Of a stretch of DNA of 32,129 nucleotides, positions 7,640-20,918 are shown in pieces. The notes beneath the pieces are model-generated. The model worked only from the letters and a program-made list of their open reading frames with translations. It searched no databases and had not been told where the DNA came from. This DNA is from a virus. How positions within the stretch are numbered: the first letter of the stretch is position 1; each line of letters starts with the position of its first letter. Position numbers and translations under genes: made by a program. The DNA lies in the IMG/VR virus record IMGVR_UViG_3300020057_000108, positions 1-32,129 of that record; one strand, given 5' to 3'.

Positions 7640-8920
7640 ATGCCTTATTTTCAAATACCTAGCGCCGGAAGCGGCGGCACGACCACGCTCGCAACAACGG
7701 AGACCTACGTAGTCGCCTCTCAGGCCGCGATGCTTCTTTTAGCCCTCGCCGAAGTCGGCGACGTTGCCGTTCGAACGGACATCGCGAAGACGTTCATCCT
7801 CGCAGCCGATGGGTACGCAACCCTCGGAAACTGGCAAGAGTTCCTTACTCCTGCTGATTTAGTATCATCGGTAAACGGAGCCACCGGGACAGTTGCCCTG
7901 ACCACCGCGAACATTTCTGAAGTAACGAATCTCTACTTCACCAACGCCAGGGCGATGGCCGCCACCTTAACCGGTTACTCCAGCGGCGCTGGAACCGTAG
8001 CGGCAGCAGATACAATTTTACAAGCAATCAACAAGTTAAACGGGAATGATGCACTAAAGGCCCCGCTAGCCGCACCGAGTTTTACGGGCACTGTTAACAT
8101 GGCCGACTTGACTGCAAGCCGGGCAGTTGTGACAGATGGGTCTAAGAACTTGGCCAGCGTGGCTTATACAAACGCCAATACTGCCTCTGCTATAGTATCT
8201 CGCGATGCGAACGGAGATTTCCAATCCAGACAAATAATCGGGAATGGCGGCTCGACTGTGCCGTCGTTTATCATTCCGAGGAACAACTCGAAGCCCGCTC
8301 TTAGCTGCTCCGAAGACACATCGCAGGGGATCTGGTTCACTGCAGACGGAACGGTAGAGATCAGGCAGACAGCCAACGTCCGTCTTTTGTTCAGCGGCGG
8401 CGCTCAGTTAATCGGTCGATATATCTGGCTCTCGCCTCACGATAATGGCACGCAGCTATTCGCGCAGGGTTTTGCCCACACGACGAACACCGCACAAACC
8501 GGGAACACGGCTGGGGCAACAACGGACCTATTCTCTACCACGCTGTTTAACGGGGCGTTTACTCCCAATAAAGCTGGGTATCGCTTCCAGTACGCCGGGA
8601 CTTTCGCCGCGACGGCAAGCGCCGATAAAAAAATAACAGTCGTCGTGGGTAGCACTACTATCCTGGACACAGGAGATCTGGGCGTCGTAACGGCAGTCGG
8701 CTGGATCGTTGAGGGGACTTTGATCAGAACCTCCACGACCGCGTGCAAAGCGATAGTGACTTTCCGATGCCAAGACAACGTGAACGGCCCGCAGTTGGTG
8801 AAATACACATCAGTTTCGGAAACAATGGCCGCCGATCTCACTCTGAAAATCACGGGCAAGGGAACAAGCGCATCGGACGTGATTGGGGAAATGTCCAAAG
8901 TCTGGATCGACGCGGATTGA
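7640..8920 (+). CDS. Tail fibre / receptor-binding protein
   Basis: 426 residues with GGAG about 11 bases upstream of the ATG. The N-terminal ~75 residues would attach to the virion; then come fibre-type linkers (SSVNGATGTVALTTANISEV, AAPSFTGTVNMADL), repeated Ala/Thr/Gly beta motifs, and a C-terminal globular beta-sandwich from about residue 275. That C-terminal pattern (TTDLFSTTL, AGTFAATASADK, WIVEGTLIRTS) is one I recall from many phage fibres. It lies alone after the lysis genes and convergent to the integrase, with a promoter-like element upstream. The last 53 bases of the gene, including its stop, are duplicated directly downstream. Confidence 0.8.
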   Translation: MPYFQIPSAGSGGTTTLATTETYVVASQAAMLLLALAEVGDVAVRTDIAKTFILAADGYATLGNWQEFLTPADLVSSVNGATGTVALTTANISEVTNLYFTNARAMAATLTGYSSGAGTVAAADTILQAINKLNGNDALKAPLAAPSFTGTVNMADLTASRAVVTDGSKNLASVAYTNANTASAIVSRDANGDFQSRQIIGNGGSTVPSFIIPRNNSKPALSCSEDTSQGIWFTADGTVEIRQTANVRLLFSGGAQLIGRYIWLSPHDNGTQLFAQGFAHTTNTAQTGNTAGATTDLFSTTLFNGAFTPNKAGYRFQYAGTFAATASADKKITVVVGSTTILDTGDLGVVTAVGWIVEGTLIRTSTTACKAIVTFRCQDNVNGPQLVKYTSVSETMAADLTLKITGKGTSASDVIGEMSKVWIDAD

Positions 8921-8973
8921 GCGCATCGGACGTGATTGGGGAAATGTCCAAAGTCTGGATCGACGCGGATTGA
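8868..8973. repeat. Exact 53-bp tandem duplication over the fibre gene stop
   Basis: Bases 8868-8920 and 8921-8973 are identical 53-mers. The first supplies the last codons and TGA of the fibre gene; the second is out of that gene and untranslated. A perfect, non-coding second copy suggests a very recent duplication or an assembly artefact, such as an unmerged contig overlap. Confidence 0.95.
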
Positions 8974-9103: not shown

Positions 9104-10234
9104 CTAGGCTTTGGTCTTCCTGCTTTGCCACTGCATGGGTTCTTCGTAGCGAGCGATACGCTTCGAGGTGTAGCTTTTGTCCGCCGTGGTGAGGCCGATG
9201 TGCCCGAGCCAGGAATCAATACAGCCTTCACGCTTGTAGCCTCGCAGCTCCATTTCGACAGAGAAGCCCTTTCGGGCGCTTCGGTTGGTGAGCTGTGCTC
9301 CGCTTTGCCGGAGCTTACTGAGGGGTATCGCCTTGAAAGCTACTTGCTGGATGGCCGAGATGAGAGCTTCTTGCTCGGGCTCCACCAGGGGCACCGCTTT
9401 CCAGCAAAGGCGGGGCTCGATACCTTTGCGCTGCAGCTTGTGTTGGAAAATGTGAAACACTTGAAAGCCTCGGCGGTCCTTATCCAAGTACCAAGTAGTT
9501 TCACTGGGTGGATTGGCCAGGATGAAATCCAATTCCTCTTTTCTTAAACCGCACCAGAAGGCAAGCTTCAGCGAATTGTATTCCTCTGGAGCTAGATGAG
9601 CTTCGGCTGTCTTAAGCTGATCCGTTGATAGTTCCAGGGTGGGCCGGTTGCCTTTTTTCTCGAAGTGGTGGCGCAGGATTTTCGATCTGTCTGCGCCTTT
9701 CGGCCGGGCCACGGGCGTCCACGCCTTGCCAGTGCGTCGGCAGTAGAATTCACCCCAAGCGTTCACGAACACCAGGAGCTTCCGAGCGTATCCGAGGCTC
9801 CAGCCTTTCTGAGTAACCCTGTCCCAGAAGACTTGGGCTCTCCAATGCCACTCGTAGGGAGGAAGCTCGATCTTGGTGAGGATGTCCTTCACGAGAAGCC
9901 AACGTTCCTTGCGCTTCGAGATCGAAGGCAAGATGTCTCGCTCGAACTCTCTGACGACTGCTGCGGGCAACCAAGCGGTTGAAGCCAGATCGGCTTGTCG
10001 GAGCCTTTCCGCGATGCGCGCTCTACGTTCCAAGTGGTAGCGGGCCTTGCCGTCCAAGCGGTGGAGCATGAGCGCCTTCTTGGCCGCAGCGGTGTCCATG
10101 CCCGTGAACACCCCTAAGCCATCAGCTTCCGGCGTTCCGAGAGCGACGCTTCGAGTCTTCAAAACCTTGTGCTTTTCGTACTCGCGATGAACGAGAACCC
10201 ACTTTGTTTTTTTCTGAATAATCAGATAGGCCAT
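9104..10234 (-). CDS. int: Tyrosine-recombinase integrase
   Basis: 376 residues, full length for a phage integrase. The N-terminal ~60 residues look like an arm-type DNA-binding domain, residues ~85-190 a helical core-binding domain, and ~200-376 the catalytic domain. Catalytic residues visible are R231 in GLRKEEL, R321 in RSARKGF, H345 in SWLGH and nucleophile Y355 in ADKSYTS, with normal spacing. The usual HxxR box reads RSAR, so the first His is Arg (R318). The start has AAGGA about 7 bases upstream on the minus strand, partly inside an inverted repeat. A tRNA 3'-end-like sequence 90-125 bp upstream is the likely attP. The enzyme integrates and, with an unseen excision factor, excises the phage. 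Confidence 0.93.
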   Translation of the reverse strand: MAYLIIQKKTKWVLVHREYEKHKVLKTRSVALGTPEADGLGVFTGMDTAAAKKALMLHRLDGKARYHLERRARIAERLRQADLASTAWLPAAVVREFERDILPSISKRKERWLLVKDILTKIELPPYEWHWRAQVFWDRVTQKGWSLGYARKLLVFVNAWGEFYCRRTGKAWTPVARPKGADRSKILRHHFEKKGNRPTLELSTDQLKTAEAHLAPEEYNSLKLAFWCGLRKEELDFILANPPSETTWYLDKDRRGFQVFHIFQHKLQRKGIEPRLCWKAVPLVEPEQEALISAIQQVAFKAIPLSKLRQSGAQLTNRSARKGFSVEMELRGYKREGCIDSWLGHIGLTTADKSYTSKRIARYEEPMQWQSRKTKA

Positions 10235-10626: not shown

Positions 10627-11139
10627 TCAAGCGACACGCTCGAACGTGAAACTTTTTGCGTGGCGGCGTTCGCCTCTGATGACTGCGCTGACGCTGCCTT
10701 GGTACAAGCCAAGTGCTTTTGCAGCGGCACACTGCGATTCGAAGATCTCTCTAGTCTGGTGACAGAGGATCTTTTGAGGCATCAGTCTCGGATTTATCAA
10801 GCCGGTCTCTTGAGCGTGCTTGAAGTTCTGGGCGTTTGTACACCACTCAAGGTTTTCGACGCGGCTGTCGGTTTTGACGCCCGAAATGTGGTTCACAGTT
10901 TCGAATCCAAAGGGATTAGGAAGGAAGGCCTCAGCCACGAGGCGATGAACGCTGTGGGTGGTTTGCTTGCCGTCTTTGTAGAGGATGACGCTAAGATAGC
11001 CACGGCTCAAGCGGGGCCTCAAGATCCGCTCTTTGATCATGTAGGTTCTGCCACCGTTGCGCACCAACCTCGCCAGGCTCTTCACCTGGCCTTCAATAGA
11101 AATTTGGTAACAGCCTTCAAAACCGATTACGTCTCGCAT
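10627..11139 (-). CDS. Free-standing HNH homing endonuclease (NUMOD4-HNH_3-NUMOD1 type)
   Basis: 170 residues. The N-terminal NUMOD4-like part reads DVIGFEGCYQISIEGQVKSL. The HNH core follows with HRLVAEAFLPNP, then VNHISGVKTDSRVENLEW, giving the His-Asn-His/Asn metal-finger pattern. Residues ~130-165 form a NUMOD1-like helix-turn-helix (CAAAKALGLYQGSVSAVIRG) for DNA binding. Such endonucleases nick or cut phage DNA and spread their own gene. It is clearly paralogous to the HNH gene at 13959 on the other strand. The ATG is preceded by GGAGA, very close to the start. A promoter-like element immediately upstream points away from the gene. Confidence 0.9.
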   Translation of the reverse strand: MRDVIGFEGCYQISIEGQVKSLARLVRNGGRTYMIKERILRPRLSRGYLSVILYKDGKQTTHSVHRLVAEAFLPNPFGFETVNHISGVKTDSRVENLEWCTNAQNFKHAQETGLINPRLMPQKILCHQTREIFESQCAAAKALGLYQGSVSAVIRGERRHAKSFTFERVA

Positions 11140-11327: not shown

Positions 11328-12446
11328 CTAATCCTTTTCTAGAATTTCGCTCACGTTCTCGCGTTGCCGAGTCTCGATCCAAACCTTCTGTTTCAGACTG
11401 AACGCCCAGTCATCGACAACATACGCGTTACGGTCGATGTCGTAGCCACAGGTGACTTTCGATCTCGAATTGTTGTCATCGCGGGATTTCCACACGAAGA
11501 ACGTTGTGAGGAATCGATCCCAATCCACAACTAATTCAACCATTTGGCCAGCTCGGAAGGCAATACTCTGAGCGCCCCAAAGCCGATCCTTCACATGCAC
11601 ATCAGCCAAGTTCTTCGCTGGCGGCCGGACCTGAGCCAGCAGAAAAATCGGCGCCATTCCAGAGATGCCTTTCTGGACCTCAAGGAATTCACCAAATCGC
11701 ATTTGGTTCTGCCAATGTTCGCTGCCCGAGGCCTCTGAGTGGCCACACACGTTCTGGTAGTAGTCGATAACGATTGCGTCGTACTTTCCGGCAGTCACTT
11801 CCTGCTCCCACAGAAACTGAAAACCGTCCACCGTGGTTAAGAACTCGGGCTTACCCGGCACCCAGTCCTTGTCGATAACGCGAACAAAGTTCGGGATTTC
11901 CTGCAGGATCTCGGCCACGGTGAGGATTTCTTCATCGCTAAGCTTCAGCAGCCCCTGCGCTGCCTTGGCCGAATTGATCCCTGATTTTAACCTCACCAGC
12001 CTGTGTTCGAAGGCGGACCGTTTTTCCTCCGTCGTCACCAGAAGGACCTTTTTGCCCTGCTGCCACAAACTATAGGCGATATTGGCAGCAACAGCTGACT
12101 TGCCGTGACCAACCTGGGCCGCGAGGATCACCAGCTGGTTTTTAGCCAACGTGATGATTTTCGAGACTTTTTCGTTGATCAGCTGTGTCGTAATCAGCGG
12201 CTGGGCCAGGCTAGTGATGAACTCGCTCACGCTGGCCTCTGCAACCTGATCGGCAGTAGGCGGTGGCACTGGCGTGAGCTTGTCGAGCTTCGAAAGGGCT
12301 AGAAGTTTCTCCCCAGCCAGCAAACGCCTGTCTCGGAGCAGGTCCAGCTCAAAACGCTGAGCGTGCTGTGCCATTGCTCTCTTGAAATTCTCTGTATTTG
12401 TCTTAATTTTGTCTTTTTGATCTTCTTTTTGTTTTTCTTCGGCCAT
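11328..12446 (-). CDS. DnaB/RecA-fold replicative helicase-like ATPase
   Basis: 372 residues. After a charged ~95-residue N-terminal part comes an ATPase core with Walker A QVGHGKSA (111-118), an acidic pair after strand 2 (VTTEEKR, E140-E141), Walker B YDAIVIDYYQ (D228) and the sensor motif IFLLAQVR (Q272). These match the C-terminal ATPase domain of DnaB-type helicases, but the usual N-terminal primase-interaction domain is absent or unrecognisable, so it may be a minimal phage helicase or a loader-type ATPase. AAGGAG lies about 7 bases upstream of the ATG. It follows the initiator gene by 27 bases in one operon, as in lambda O-P. It would unwind DNA for host polymerase. Confidence 0.85.
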   Translation of the reverse strand: MAEEKQKEDQKDKIKTNTENFKRAMAQHAQRFELDLLRDRRLLAGEKLLALSKLDKLTPVPPPTADQVAEASVSEFITSLAQPLITTQLINEKVSKIITLAKNQLVILAAQVGHGKSAVAANIAYSLWQQGKKVLLVTTEEKRSAFEHRLVRLKSGINSAKAAQGLLKLSDEEILTVAEILQEIPNFVRVIDKDWVPGKPEFLTTVDGFQFLWEQEVTAGKYDAIVIDYYQNVCGHSEASGSEHWQNQMRFGEFLEVQKGISGMAPIFLLAQVRPPAKNLADVHVKDRLWGAQSIAFRAGQMVELVVDWDRFLTTFFVWKSRDDNNSRSKVTCGYDIDRNAYVVDDWAFSLKQKVWIETRQRENVSEILEKD

Positions 12447-12473: not shown

Positions 12474-13445
12474 CTACGAAATTTCGGTAAATCCGCCGTA
12501 CACAATATCGTACGTGGCTTTAGCTTCAGCCTTGGCTCGTGCAGCAGCCAACTCAGTTCGTTTAGCCTCGCTGGCAGCAACATCCGTGGTTTGGCCAGTG
12601 CTCTGGCGAGCGTCAATGCCAATCTCAGCCCATTCTACGACCTTTTCCCTAGCCCGGGCTTTTGAGTCTTTGTTGCGGAAGTGCCTCGCCGCAGCAAAGG
12701 CCGTGGTGTGTGGGTCCAGGCTTGAGCCTTCGGGTAGACTGAAAGCAGCAATCACTGTGGGCTCCACTCGATCCATCCAGAATTTCTTTTCGCCATTTTT
12801 GATCAGCTGTCCAATCTCATCGTTCAACGAGCTTTGGAGATTCGTTGATTCCGAATCCGAATCCGAATCCGAATTCGATTCCAAATCCGAAACACCAACT
12901 GGTGTAGGTAGGATAGTATTTCTTATATTATGAAGTGTCCCACCAGGAGCCCACTGGTTTTCGGTTTCGTGCCTAGAAGCGGTTTCTTGCTGGGCTTGTG
13001 GTGGGACACCCACCTTTTCCGAACTGTTGTCGGTGTACCTGTGGTGGGACACTTCGTCCTTGTGGTGGGACAGATCGTCCTTGTGGTGGGACACTTCGGG
13101 CTCCTGGTGGGACACTTCGGGCTCCTGGTGGGACACTTCGGCGAACGAATTTTCGAAAACCAGGTCCTTTGACCACTGGTCGGGAGGAAGGATCTTTAGG
13201 GCGTCTCCTTCCTGTCTGAGCAATCCGTAAAGTTGGAGCTTCTCCAAAGTCCTCGCGATTGTGCTTTTGCCCAGGCCGGTCACCTTGGCCAGGTAGCGAG
13301 TGGACACTGCCCATCCTCCGTAAAGCGACAGGAGATAAGCAAAGATCCCCTTTTCCGTCATGCTCAGGGAGCGGCACAGCCACAGTTCGTTTGGCACTAA
13401 AGAGAATTTCTTCTCAATTTTGAATTCAGATTTGTCGATTCTCAT
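12474..13445 (-). CDS. O-like replication initiator with winged-helix N-terminus and internal repeats
   Basis: 323 residues from the ATG at 13445, chosen over a TTG two codons upstream because GGGAAG lies 6 bases before the ATG and the ATG overlaps the previous stop (ATGA). Residues ~15-85 form a winged helix-turn-helix (MTEKGIFAYLL, VTGLGKSTIARTLEKLQLYG) typical of phage and plasmid replication proteins. Residues ~103-135 hold five heptad repeats around VSH (EVSHQEP, DLSHHKD), then a polar linker with an SDSDSDS run, and a helical Ala/Lys-rich C-terminus. The repeats arise from 21-bp DNA iterons, so the gene probably contains its own origin, as lambda O does. Partner: the helicase downstream. 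Confidence 0.85.
   Translation of the reverse strand: MRIDKSEFKIEKKFSLVPNELWLCRSLSMTEKGIFAYLLSLYGGWAVSTRYLAKVTGLGKSTIARTLEKLQLYGLLRQEGDALKILPPDQWSKDLVFENSFAEVSHQEPEVSHQEPEVSHHKDDLSHHKDEVSHHRYTDNSSEKVGVPPQAQQETASRHETENQWAPGGTLHNIRNTILPTPVGVSDLESNSDSDSDSESTNLQSSLNDEIGQLIKNGEKKFWMDRVEPTVIAAFSLPEGSSLDPHTTAFAAARHFRNKDSKARAREKVVEWAEIGIDARQSTGQTTDVAASEAKRTELAAARAKAEAKATYDIVYGGFTEIS
12910..13134. other. Candidate replication origin: 21-bp iterons plus AT-rich segment inside the initiator gene
   Basis: GGTGGGAC occurs at 13043, 13064, 13085, 13106 and 13127, exactly 21 bp apart, within longer shared units (for example CTGGTGGGACACTTCGGGC), with a sixth copy at 13000. An inverted copy of the unit (GTCCCACCAGGAGCCC) is at 12937-12952, directly beside an AT-rich tract (12910-12934). 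TCCGAA hexamers repeat at about 12850-12890. Iterons plus an AT-rich unwinding-type element inside an initiator gene match the lambda O/ori arrangement. Confidence 0.6.
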
Positions 13446-13723
13446 TTGCAACTTCCCAGGAACTCATCGACCCTCTTCAAGATTTTTCCGTTTAAGATCC
13501 CGATTACGATTGGATTGGTGATGGCGATGGTCGGCTTGTTCTCGTCATCTGTGCACTCGGCGCAAGTCCAGCCGTCGCCCGTGCTCCGGAAATAGAATTC
13601 GCAGGTCTTGCTATAAAAAATAATAGCTCCTGTGAAGAGGACGTCCCACGCGTCCAGACGACAGCCTTGCTCGCTGGTCACGATGCTTGCGATCCGATTA
13701 TTAATAAGTTTGTCGGTGGTCAT
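13442..13723 (-). CDS. Small hypothetical protein at head of the replication operon
   Basis: 93 residues, not recognised. It has beta-rich hydrophobic strands, Cys at 21, 41, 54 and 57 (the last two as CAEC, a possible metal or redox pair) and an acidic turn after them. Its stop overlaps the initiator start (ATGA), so the two are co-translated. The ATG is preceded only by a weak GGGA and lies 12 bases past the U-run of a terminator, with a leader ORF running across its start. This suggests controlled expression. It could be a replication regulator or repressor-like factor, but nothing in its sequence proves it. Confidence 0.65.
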   Translation of the reverse strand: MTTDKLINNRIASIVTSEQGCRLDAWDVLFTGAIIFYSKTCEFYFRSTGDGWTCAECTDDENKPTIAITNPIVIGILNGKILKRVDEFLGSCK

Positions 13724-13841: not shown

Positions 13842-13878
13842 CAGATTCTCTAGTTGAAGATTAAAGCATCCAAAAGGC

Positions 13879-13931
13879 AGAACAAAATTTATGATAAAAA
13901 TAAATGTTGTTCTTATCATAAGTTTTGATCT
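13879..13931. repeat. Inverted pair of promoter-like elements
   Basis: Bases 13879-13897 and 13913-13931 are inverted copies (17 of 19 match; core TTTATGATAA versus TTATCATAAG) separated by 15 bp. Each arm carries one TATGAT, so the site is symmetric and could be a dimeric regulator's operator as well as two face-to-face -10 boxes. Confidence 0.7.
13890..13895 (+). promoter_or_regulatory. Plus-strand TATGAT of the face-to-face pair
   Basis: TATGAT preceded by AGAACAAAATT as in the other copies, but with no recognisable -35 at the usual distance (ATCCAA at 13868-13873). If active it would drive the HNH gene at 13959 and genes to its right. Weak alone; an activator or the paired site may matter. 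Confidence 0.35.
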
Positions 13932-13958: not shown

Positions 13959-14450
13959 ATGAAAGACGTAATCGGCTACGAAGGGTTTTATCAGGTTAAC
14001 GAGATTGGCCAGGTGAAGAGCTTGTCGAGGAAAGGACGTCGAGCGGACAGGATTCTGAAGCCCGGCCTGAACGGCTGTGGCTATTTGACAGTCATTCTGT
14101 ACAGAGACAGCGTCAGGACCGGTCACCTCGTTCATCGCCTGATCGCTGAAGTCTACCTTCCGAATCCCGACAGTCTCAGCCAAGTCAATCATATCAACGG
14201 CATCAAGACCGATAACAGAGTCGAGAACCTTGAGTGGTGTACACAAGCCCAAAACATCAAACACTCTCAAGCGACTGGACTCGTCAATCCGAGACTGATG
14301 CCTCGACAGGTCCTCTGCCACCAAACTGGCGTGATTTACGAATCGCAGTGTGCCGCAGCCAGGGAGCTTGGGCTGCACCAAGGCCACATCAGCGGCGTGA
14401 TCCTCGGCAAATGCCGTCACAAAGGCTACACGTTTGAGCGTGTGAAATGA
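13959..14450 (+). CDS. Second free-standing HNH homing endonuclease (NUMOD4-HNH_3-NUMOD1 type)
   Basis: 163 residues, paralogous to the minus-strand HNH gene at 10627 along its whole length. NUMOD4-like start DVIGYEGFYQVNEIGQVKSL; HNH core HRLIAEVYLPNP then VNHINGIKTDNRVENLEW; NUMOD1-like helix-turn-helix CAAARELGLHQGHISGVILG; conserved C-terminus YTFERV. The ribosome site is poor. Its stop overlaps the start of a Cys4 zinc protein (ATGA), so the two are coupled. Upstream it shares with its paralogue a ~45-bp sequence containing the promoter-like element, pointing away from the endonuclease in both cases. It probably acts as a selfish nuclease; a packaging-nick role is less likely because the gene lies away from terminase. 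Confidence 0.9.
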   Translation: MKDVIGYEGFYQVNEIGQVKSLSRKGRRADRILKPGLNGCGYLTVILYRDSVRTGHLVHRLIAEVYLPNPDSLSQVNHINGIKTDNRVENLEWCTQAQNIKHSQATGLVNPRLMPRQVLCHQTGVIYESQCAAARELGLHQGHISGVILGKCRHKGYTFERVK

Positions 14451-15012: not shown

Positions 15013-15152
15013 GGCGTCTCGGCATCTTGACCTCGGTCGCCCTGGCGGCTTATGCGCTGACCGATGCCGCAAGATTTTCAAACATAGTGGCCGCTGCAGC
15101 CTTCGCTGTTGCAGTCGCTTTTTACCTCAAAGGAAAATATGACGGAAAATAA
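15009..15152 (+). CDS. Small two-segment membrane protein
   Basis: 47 residues in a frame starting at the stop of the winged-helix gene (ATGA). Two hydrophobic stretches, ILTSVALAAYAL (about 6-17) and NIVAAAAFAVAVAFYL (about 25-40), separated by a short polar turn and ending in basic/acidic residues (KGKYDGK), predict a small hairpin membrane protein. Its stop lies in the 12-bp repeats that form the start of the next gene. Holin-like or immunity-type membrane proteins have this form; there is no further evidence. Confidence 0.55.
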   Translation: MRRLGILTSVALAAYALTDAARFSNIVAAAAFAVAVAFYLKGKYDGK

Positions 15153-15486
15153 AACGGAAAATAAAACGGAAAATATGACCGAAAATAAGGCACCGAATGA
15201 AAACGAACTTCTCTTGGCACAAATCGCCAGCCTTGGTCAGCTGCTAGCCGACGCGCAGCTTCCTGGCAGCAGATCTGCCGAGGTCGCCCAGGCTCTGAGC
15301 TTCCTCTCGAAATTGTACGAAGCTACCCAACTTAAAATCGAAAACGACGCGACCGAGGCGTTTAAGAAACAACAGATACTCGAACAAATCCAGAAGGACT
15401 CCGTTACCGTCTCTGTGTCGGAGTGGGTAAAAGTTGGCGTACTGGCCGCGCCCAATGACCAGAGTGAGCCTCGTGCCGCCGAATAG
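15139..15486 (+). CDS. Helical hypothetical protein with repeated N-terminus and two in-frame starts
   Basis: 115 residues. The ATG at 15139 has AAAGGA 5 bases upstream. The first 16 residues are a TENK-type repeat (MTENKTENKTENMTENK) coded by 12-bp DNA repeats, and the second ATG at 15175 is preceded by a copy of the same bases (CGGAAAAT), so initiation could occur at either. The remainder is helical, Leu/Ala/Glu-rich, with no recognisable domain. Its end overlaps the start of the following gene by about 30 bases. Confidence 0.65.
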   Translation: MTENKTENKTENMTENKAPNENELLLAQIASLGQLLADAQLPGSRSAEVAQALSFLSKLYEATQLKIENDATEAFKKQQILEQIQKDSVTVSVSEWVKVGVLAAPNDQSEPRAAE

Positions 15487-18965: not shown

Positions 18966-20918
18966 ATGGATAAATACTTCGCGACCGCTCCGGTACAAGA
19001 AATCGTAGGCTTGCTCAAGGCTAAAATCTCTACCTACGAGGACTTCCTCAAGACTAGCGGCCGATTCAATCGCTGGCGACTGGCCTACGAGTCCTACTAC
19101 GCGGGGCATTTCTATCCCCTCATCCGGAGCGTAGGGAGCTACGGTGAGAAGAAGAAGATTGAAACGGGCGATTTTCGGAACCTCATTCAGCATATCTTTG
19201 CTCAAACAACGCAAACGCGGCCAGCCTTGCAGGCCAGTGCAGAGAATACCGATCTAGAGTCCATGGCGCACACCCTCCTGGGTGAAGGTCTGCTAGCCCA
19301 TCATTTTACGGCCAACGAATACCGCTGCGAGGAGGTCATCAATAAGGCAGTCGAGCTAGCTTTGGTGGTTGATGAGGGCTTCGCCTGTCAAGAGTGGTCC
19401 CGCTTCGCAGGCGGCCCAGTAGCGATGGACGAGAAGGGTCAGCCCGTCCAAGCCGGGGACTTCATATCTTACGCGTTACCACCCTGGGACGTCATTCGTG
19501 ACCCGAACTCAAAGGGCGCAACCAGCTGGCTGATCATAAAGGTGCAAACTAATAAGTTCGACCTAGCCGCAGATTACCCCGCCCACGCCGAGGCGATACT
19601 TTCCACCAAAGAGCCTGAGGACTTTTTTCAGATCGATAGCTCAACGAAGAACGACGACCTGGTAACCAAGCACGTCTTTTATCACAAGGTCTGCTCTTCT
19701 CTGTCCAGCGGCCGGATCGTGACCTTCGTAGGTGATACCGCAATCGATGACCAGCCTCTGCTTGGAACCTATGACGAAATCCCCGTGTACCGAATGTCAG
19801 CTGGTGATGTGCTCGGACAGATCTTTGGTTACAGCCCAGGCGCAGACCTTCTAGCCTTGAGCCAGGTCAGTTCGCTTTTACATAGCTGCATTGTTACGAA
19901 CCAGCTGGCATTCGGAACCCAGGGAGTGAAAGCGGCTCGCGGCAGCAATGTGACGGCGACAATGCTAGCTGACGTAGGCATGACCCTCTGGGAAACGGAT
20001 GAAAAATTCATCGATGCGCTTCAGCCGCTGCAGCTCACCTCCAGTCCACCCGAAGTGTTCCAGTATATTAAAACTGTTGAAGCGAAGATGGAGATGCAAG
20101 CCGGGCAGAACTCCGTGACTCGCGGCTCGCCTGACGCTTCCCTCAAGTCGGGCTCTGCACTAGCGTTAGTCGCATCACAAAGCATTCAGTTCCACGCTCC
20201 AATTGCCCAAAGGTACAACTCCCTCCTGGAAGGCTACGGCACCGGGATGATCAAGGTTCTGCAGAAAAACGTAAAAACAGAACGTAAGGCCGAAATCCTG
20301 GGCAAGACCAATCGCTGGACCACCAAGGGTTATACGGGCGAATCGATCTCGAAGATCAACCGCGTAAGGGCTGTTGTTATTAACCCGCTGGCAAAGACCC
20401 AGGCGGGACGTCTTGAGATGGCTCGCGACATGTTGTCGGCCGGGTTCATCAAGCGACAAGAGCAGTACTTCGCTGTTCTGCAGTTTGGGACGGACCAAAG
20501 CCTGTACGACAATGAGCTTCTTCAGGCCTTGGCCATGAAAGAGGAAAACGAGGCCATCCTGGAAGGGAGGCCCGTGAAGGCCTTAATCACTGAGGATCAC
20601 CCGAAGCACATCCTGGAGGTTTTGAGCCTGATCAACTCACCCAAGGCTAAGGAAGACCAGGGGCTGGTAGACCGAGTAACCGCGCACGTGATGGAACACC
20701 TTGAGCTGTGGCGTAACGCGCCTGCCGACTTGATGCAGCTGCTGGGCGTGCAACCGCCTCCTGCTGTGGGTCCTGGTGGGCCTGTGGGTGCTGTGGGTGC
20801 TGTGGGTGCTGTGGGTGCTGTGGGTGCTATGCAGGGGCCTTCCGAGCCTCCTCCGGAAGCACAGATGCCAAAGAACCCAATCACTAATGAAAAATACGAT
20901 CCTGCTACTGGAGAATAA
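18966..20918 (+). CDS. Portal protein
   Basis: 650 residues from the ATG at 18966; the frame is open further upstream, but that part overlaps the terminase and is not needed. It has the layout of large short-tailed-phage portals: N-terminal helical wing (VQEIVGLLKAKIS, RWRLAYESYYAG), a beta-rich middle with PPWDVIRDP and a long helical stem/crown region (~320-590). The C-terminal ~50 residues are low-complexity Gly-Ala-Val from 9-bp DNA repeats (about 20785-20830), Pro-rich and probably disordered. It follows terminase by 16 bases and precedes scaffold and capsid, the canonical order. It forms the dodecameric DNA channel at the head vertex. Its start has no clear ribosome site. Confidence 0.88.
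   Translation: MDKYFATAPVQEIVGLLKAKISTYEDFLKTSGRFNRWRLAYESYYAGHFYPLIRSVGSYGEKKKIETGDFRNLIQHIFAQTTQTRPALQASAENTDLESMAHTLLGEGLLAHHFTANEYRCEEVINKAVELALVVDEGFACQEWSRFAGGPVAMDEKGQPVQAGDFISYALPPWDVIRDPNSKGATSWLIIKVQTNKFDLAADYPAHAEAILSTKEPEDFFQIDSSTKNDDLVTKHVFYHKVCSSLSSGRIVTFVGDTAIDDQPLLGTYDEIPVYRMSAGDVLGQIFGYSPGADLLALSQVSSLLHSCIVTNQLAFGTQGVKAARGSNVTATMLADVGMTLWETDEKFIDALQPLQLTSSPPEVFQYIKTVEAKMEMQAGQNSVTRGSPDASLKSGSALALVASQSIQFHAPIAQRYNSLLEGYGTGMIKVLQKNVKTERKAEILGKTNRWTTKGYTGESISKINRVRAVVINPLAKTQAGRLEMARDMLSAGFIKRQEQYFAVLQFGTDQSLYDNELLQALAMKEENEAILEGRPVKALITEDHPKHILEVLSLINSPKAKEDQGLVDRVTAHVMEHLELWRNAPADLMQLLGVQPPPAVGPGGPVGAVGAVGAVGAVGAMQGPSEPPPEAQMPKNPITNEKYDPATGE

Follow-up and report, generated by a model that had tools for sequence, protein, structure and literature searches.

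A putative replication origin built from directional iterons inside the initiator gene of an uncultured tailed phage

The window, that is the whole stretch of DNA analysed here, is an IMG/VR record of 32,129 bases, and since genes for a terminase, a major head protein and an endolysin are present, its source is a tailed bacterial virus. As listed in Table 1, its replication module comprises an initiator gene, the gene of a DnaB-like replicative helicase directly downstream of it, which is the order of P22-type modules, and a 93-aa ORF, whose ATGA overlap with the initiator gene suggests that the two belong to one operon. No family match was found for the 93-aa ORF in Pfam, PHROG or NCBIfam. 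The helicase also matches phrog_19 (E=1.2e-12) and TIGR03600 phage_DnaB, the latter (E=5e-9) below the model's cut-off. Neither between the initiator and the helicase nor next to them was a loader gene recognised, some short ORFs being without assignment. NUMOD4/HNH_3/I-HmuI-like homing endonuclease genes at 10627-11139 (-) and 13959-14450 (+) bracket the module. The least stable stretch of the whole record, 13850-13916, is intergenic between the divergent 93-aa ORF and HNH gene, has promoter-like matches on both strands, and is likely the early promoter region.

Table 1. Coordinates of the genes and sequence features of the replication module
Feature	Coordinates	Strand	Basis or remark
DnaB-like replicative helicase, 372 aa, next downstream	11328..12446	-	DnaB_C E=3.3e-11
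Initiator gene, 323 aa, ATG at 13445	12474..13445	-	HTH_36 and PHROG matches
TCCGAA hexamer array	12850..12891	-	encodes Ser-Asp-rich linker stretch; just beyond AT tract
AT-rich tract, candidate unwinding element	12905..12934	.	duplex stability of 30-bp windows
Inverted iteron	12936..12945	-	core of 21-bp exact inverted copy
Iteron 6	12999..13008	+	43 bp from iteron 5, other reading frame
Iteron 5	13042..13051	+	exact match
Iteron 4	13063..13072	+	exact match
Iteron 3	13084..13093	+	exact match
Iteron 2	13105..13114	+	exact match
Iteron 1 (first in gene sense), TGGTGGGACA	13126..13135	+	exact match
HTH_36 match	13218..13367	-	only one in record
93-aa ORF	13442..13723	-	stop codon overlaps initiator ATG (ATGA)

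The nearest terminase is that of the Silvanigrella prophage CP017838 (27% identity), and no close named relative of the phage was found; CP017838 gave no match to a wHTH initiator or a helicase. Elsewhere in the record, a 376-aa ORF at 9104-10234 (-) reads by eye as a divergent tyrosine recombinase (GLRKEEL ... WLGH...SYT) and is matched by no Pfam, PHROG or NCBIfam model, and a tail-fibre-like ORF (7640-8920) has at its 3' end a perfect 53-bp tandem duplication (8868-8973), which might resemble an attachment site, or might have arisen by recent slippage or as an artefact of assembly. Of two further tandem arrays, one (12-bp unit, 15132-15188) opens a small ORF and encodes TENK-type repeats, and the other (9-bp unit, 20762-20828) encodes GAV repeats near the C-terminus of a portal-like ORF.

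The initiator was assigned by its Pfam HTH_36 match (E=1.4e-8; 34.9 bits against a cut-off of 25; residues 27-76) and by PHROG matches to 'DnaD-like helicase loader' and 'replication initiation protein', with O-like families matched weakly. PF04492 (Phage_rep_O), which matches lambda O at 6e-36 and P22 gp18 at 7e-38, did not match the protein, for which HTH_36 was the only hit of the two. The initiator is therefore not a Phage_rep_O member but belongs to the HTH_36-type initiators, and it has their layout of an N-terminal HTH_36 domain, a linker and a C-terminal domain, with a DnaB-like helicase gene adjoining. AlphaFold2, using 14 aligned sequences, confidently predicted a winged helix at residues 21-90 (pLDDT about 90), followed by a linker with a pLDDT below 50 through most of its length, which is thus predicted to be disordered, and a helical C-terminal part of mixed confidence. 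The PDB fold neighbours of this model are MarR/ArsR-type winged helices, none with E<0.001, and among its viral fold neighbours is a RepA-like initiator from a Gordonia phage. A PDB sequence search gave no homologue of the initiator or the helicase, no close homologue of the initiator was found in viral contigs, with only weak wHTH matches in phages and plasmids, and Rfam returned nothing. No helicase-binding motif was recognised in the C-terminal domain of the initiator.

An array of short repeats lies in the linker-coding part of the initiator gene. The original prediction had described five copies of GGTGGGAC at 21-bp spacing, a further copy at 13000 and an inverted copy at 12937-12944, and all of these positions proved exact, the five direct copies starting at 13043, 13064, 13085, 13106 and 13127. 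Elsewhere in the record GGTGGGAC does not occur (expected 0.74, and at most 3 in 100 shuffles). The repeat unit shared by the copies is longer, namely TGGTGGGACA, which has 7 exact copies in the 32,129 bases, all inside the initiator gene; no further copy, even with one mismatch, was found in the whole record, and none is expected by chance. In gene sense the core of the iteron is GTCCCACCA, and it is directional. Iteron 6 forms the right arm of a dyad, GGTGGG-TGT-CCCACC, and the segment 12932-12952 around the inverted iteron is the exact reverse complement of both 13098-13118 and 13119-13139, two iteron-plus-spacer units, as would be expected if an inverted duplication had taken place fairly recently. 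The iterons had been expected to differ from those of lambda, and so they do: their internal dyad score is 0.48, a value reached by 381 of 500 column shuffles, against 0.75 for lambda, reached by 0 of 500. By this measure there is no lambda-type hyphenated inverted repeat inside each iteron.

Read in the direction of the gene, the tandem copies are GTG TCC CAC (V S H), with CTG as first codon of the fourth, and they encode a 7-residue period (VSHQEPE, VSHHKDE). Iteron 6, however, reads GTC CCA CCA (V P P) and the inverted copy GGT GGG ACA (G G T), and since the out-of-frame and inverted copies encode different peptides, the signal lies in the DNA. When synonymous codons were shuffled without changing the protein, no more than 4 copies arose in any of 20,000 trials, compared with the 7 observed, and the serine codon TCC is used in the repeats 5 times out of 5 but elsewhere only 2 times out of 27. 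As the synonymous shuffles never reproduced the repeats, the 7-residue period is a by-product of the 21-bp spacing. We conclude that the repeats are selected as DNA. Of the heptad repeats noted originally, the 7-residue period of the five tandem copies is thus real, but it is not a conserved protein repeat, given the predicted disorder of the linker, the out-of-frame position of iteron 6 and the GGT reading of the inverted copy. The locus accordingly presents what characterises initiator-embedded iterons, at least three direct repeats about 20-24 bp apart within an initiator gene and selected as DNA.

Adjoining the iterons on their gene-sense 3' side is an AT-rich, easily melted tract, in agreement with the earlier placement of such a tract beside the inverted copy. 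Among all 30-bp windows of the record it ranks second in instability (0.03 percentile), and no 30-bp window in the initiator or helicase gene is less stable. The tract is short (25-30 bp), and longer, weaker AT-rich stretches lie at 12385 and 13850-13887; over 50 bp or more, the one at 12385, in the helicase gene, is weaker than the region of 12905-12934.

Comparison with known systems placed these features in context. For ori-lambda, located in gene O, there is experimental evidence that the iterons are bound by O and that an AT-rich unwinding region adjoins them (PMC7466680, PMC6022878). Like the gene described here, lambda O has mid-gene iterons between its DNA-binding and C-terminal parts, 20-24 bp apart, with an AT-rich tract on the 3' side (PMC7466680), but it belongs to the Phage_rep_O family, each of its iterons is an 18-bp hyphenated inverted repeat, and the loader P, not a helicase, follows. 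P22 gene 18 resembles our gene in that an origin is annotated within it, an AT-rich tract lies 3' of the repeats, and a DnaB-like helicase, gene 12, comes directly after; it differs in encoding a Phage_rep_O (PF04492) protein and in its GGTAAA-type iterons. Expressed as a fraction of gene length, the iterons span 0.32-0.52 here, against 0.39-0.48 for lambda O and 0.44-0.53 for P22 gene 18; in each of the three genes the weakest 30 bp lies close by on the 3' side, with nearly equal values of 1.05, 1.04 and 1.05 kcal per step. The original comparison with lambda O and its origin therefore holds for the place of the iterons and of the weak duplex in the gene, whereas the initiator-helicase order of the module is that of P22 and not the initiator-loader order of lambda, the protein is of HTH_36 and not Phage_rep_O type, and the iterons are without the internal dyad of lambda iterons. 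A classification of phage replication modules has reportedly been given by Weigel and Seitz.

Several HTH-type initiator genes of named phages show the arrangement as well. In the Burkholderia phage Bcep176, gp11, annotated 'primosomal protein', is likewise an HTH_36 gene with mid-gene GTCCCA iterons, an inverted copy and the gene's weakest 30 bp directly 3', although its spacing is 22 bp and out of frame, its terminal inverted copy overlaps the last direct copy (GTCCCAAATTTGGGAC), and a DUF6475 gene comes next, with no annotated helicase adjoining. Escherichia phage phiV10 p43 and Edwardsiella phage GF-2 gp62 are also HTH-type, with mid-gene iterons of a related core (ATCCCA) and an AT-rich tract 3' of them, but the phiV10 iterons tend to internal dyads. 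Comparable spacing with other cores was seen in phiV10, GF-2, Ab105-2phi, Vibrio P2, Psychrobacter Y8A and Vibrio 1.061.O, while in AP22, EPP-1, Cafasso, Nebkiss and Vibrio 1.167.O no chain rose above chance in an exact-word test that also misses the iterons of lambda and whose negatives are therefore weak. The gene after the initiator is a replication P gene in phiV10, GF-2 and Y8A, in which the first two differ from our phage, and a helicase gene in AP22, Ab105-2phi and Vibrio 1.061.O.

Viral contigs were scanned for three copies of TGGGAC at 20-24 bp spacing, using the scrambled core TGGCAG as control, and a locus was counted if an ORF matching a wHTH profile built from three initiators overlapped it or lay within 1 kb. 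Among the matches listed, a wHTH ORF was found at 25 of 138 TGGGAC loci, a test set pooled from several scans, compared with 4 of 120 TGGCAG loci (Fisher P=1e-4); with the two seed loci removed, the count among the matches listed was 23 of 136 (P=3e-4). The 4 control loci with a wHTH ORF carry iteron-like TGGCAG arrays of their own, indicating a general architecture with a variable core sequence. In or beside the wHTH genes, GTCCCA copies are most often 22 bp apart, 39 of 53 spacings cannot be divided by 3, and an out-of-frame step occurs in 22 of 24 loci; many arrays terminate with an inverted copy. In 17 of 27 such genes, where 4.4 would be expected, the weakest 30 bp is found no further than 120 bp 3' of the iterons (P about 5e-8 if the genes are independent, which is optimistic since some are related). 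Two initiator genes of other phages, L153:7190-7940 and L038:2895-3702, have GTCCCA/TGGGAC sites on both strands, overlapping or nested and denser than the array described here. A further initiator with GTCCCA sites in its gene (L144) matches O-like proteins in its C-terminal part and theirs, which links HTH_36 and O-type initiators. In a less motif-biased set of HTH_36 genes, clear arrays were present only in genes behind TGGCAG matches and the rest were mostly at chance level, so not every HTH_36 gene encodes an iteron initiator. Scanning genome contigs for the TGGGAC triplet yielded at least 120 matches, none of them near a wHTH ORF by the profile among the matches listed; these are probably protein repeats for the most part.

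These scans raise the tentative idea that GTCCCA could be the common core of directional iterons that form a widespread, undescribed class, spaced by 21-24 bp and frequently closed off by an inverted copy, and that the HTH_36 initiators which recognise them, in phages with many different hosts, are highly divergent. The recurrence across divergent initiators was found by motif-first searching, and we regard such a class as possible rather than probable. No description of GTCCCA iterons was found in a literature search whose coverage of subscription journals is thin, and aligned wHTH domains revealed, by eye, no simple rule relating residues of the recognition helix to the core.

We propose that the phage has its replication origin at 12905-13142, inside the linker-coding part of its own initiator gene; this is by far the preferred reading, and from sequence we put its probability at roughly 0.86. 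The proposal is founded on the repeats and the evidence that they act as DNA, on the order of the genes, on the weak duplex and on the occurrence of the same arrangement in other phages. An origin embedded in the initiator gene had been predicted, and the wHTH protein beside a DnaB-like helicase, the selection of the repeats as DNA and the similar arrays in many wHTH initiator genes support it; GC skew, suggested at that time as a check, showed no peak at 12.9 kb and was of no use as a signal. Origins of this kind are already known from lambda and P22, and the one proposed here is built with a different repeat set. The initiator is best read as functionally lambda O/P22 gp18-like, and the order of the module as P22-like. 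We infer that such an origin would be used through initiator binding, melting and helicase loading. The N-terminal winged helix would bind the directional iterons, and several bound initiators would form a nucleoprotein complex, in which the inverted copy might act as an end stop or a loop partner. This complex would strain and open the AT-rich tract, and the C-terminal domain of the initiator would then recruit the DnaB-like helicase encoded by the next gene.

Could the repeats instead be operators, through which a wHTH protein regulates its own operon while replication starts elsewhere? MarR/ArsR-type regulators are the fold neighbours of the protein, and Pfam HTH_36 by itself is not specific to replication, but the array lies mid-gene, 300-500 bp downstream of the start codon and not at a promoter, the helicase is the next gene, and in lambda a mid-gene array with a weak duplex is known to be the origin, as it is annotated to be in P22. 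We therefore consider operators in place of an origin unlikely, although autoregulation could exist alongside the origin role. Even less probable, and by now largely refuted, is a 7-residue linker repeat that spread by replication slippage and has no function as DNA: the five in-frame 21-bp copies agree with it, as does the identity of iterons 1 and 2, suggesting recent duplication, yet the sixth copy is shifted in frame and the seventh is inverted, both encoding unrelated peptides, codon choice is non-random, and the linker is predicted to be disordered. Moreover, other initiators mostly have 22-23 bp spacing, at which no peptide repeat is kept. An equally improbable reading is that of a plasmid-like prophage whose partition site (parS-like) or incompatibility site is formed by the array. 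Centromeres, too, can have direct repeats in clusters together with inverted copies; here, however, the repeats are inside an initiator gene beside a helicase, no ParA/ParB gene was recognised among the proteins of the record searched with Pfam and PHROG, and the ORF that resembles a tyrosine recombinase by eye suggests integration over plasmid maintenance.

An origin inside the initiator gene, the reading we prefer, places a candidate origin in an uncultured phage without close relatives, and it supports a simple origin finder that looks for 21-24-bp frame-independent repeats in the linker of a wHTH initiator and then for the weakest duplex. If the GTCCCA class is true, a single core motif would suffice to call origins from the sequence itself. 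The recurrence of GTCCCA leads to a testable question, namely how winged helices choose their sites and why origins stay embedded in initiator genes.
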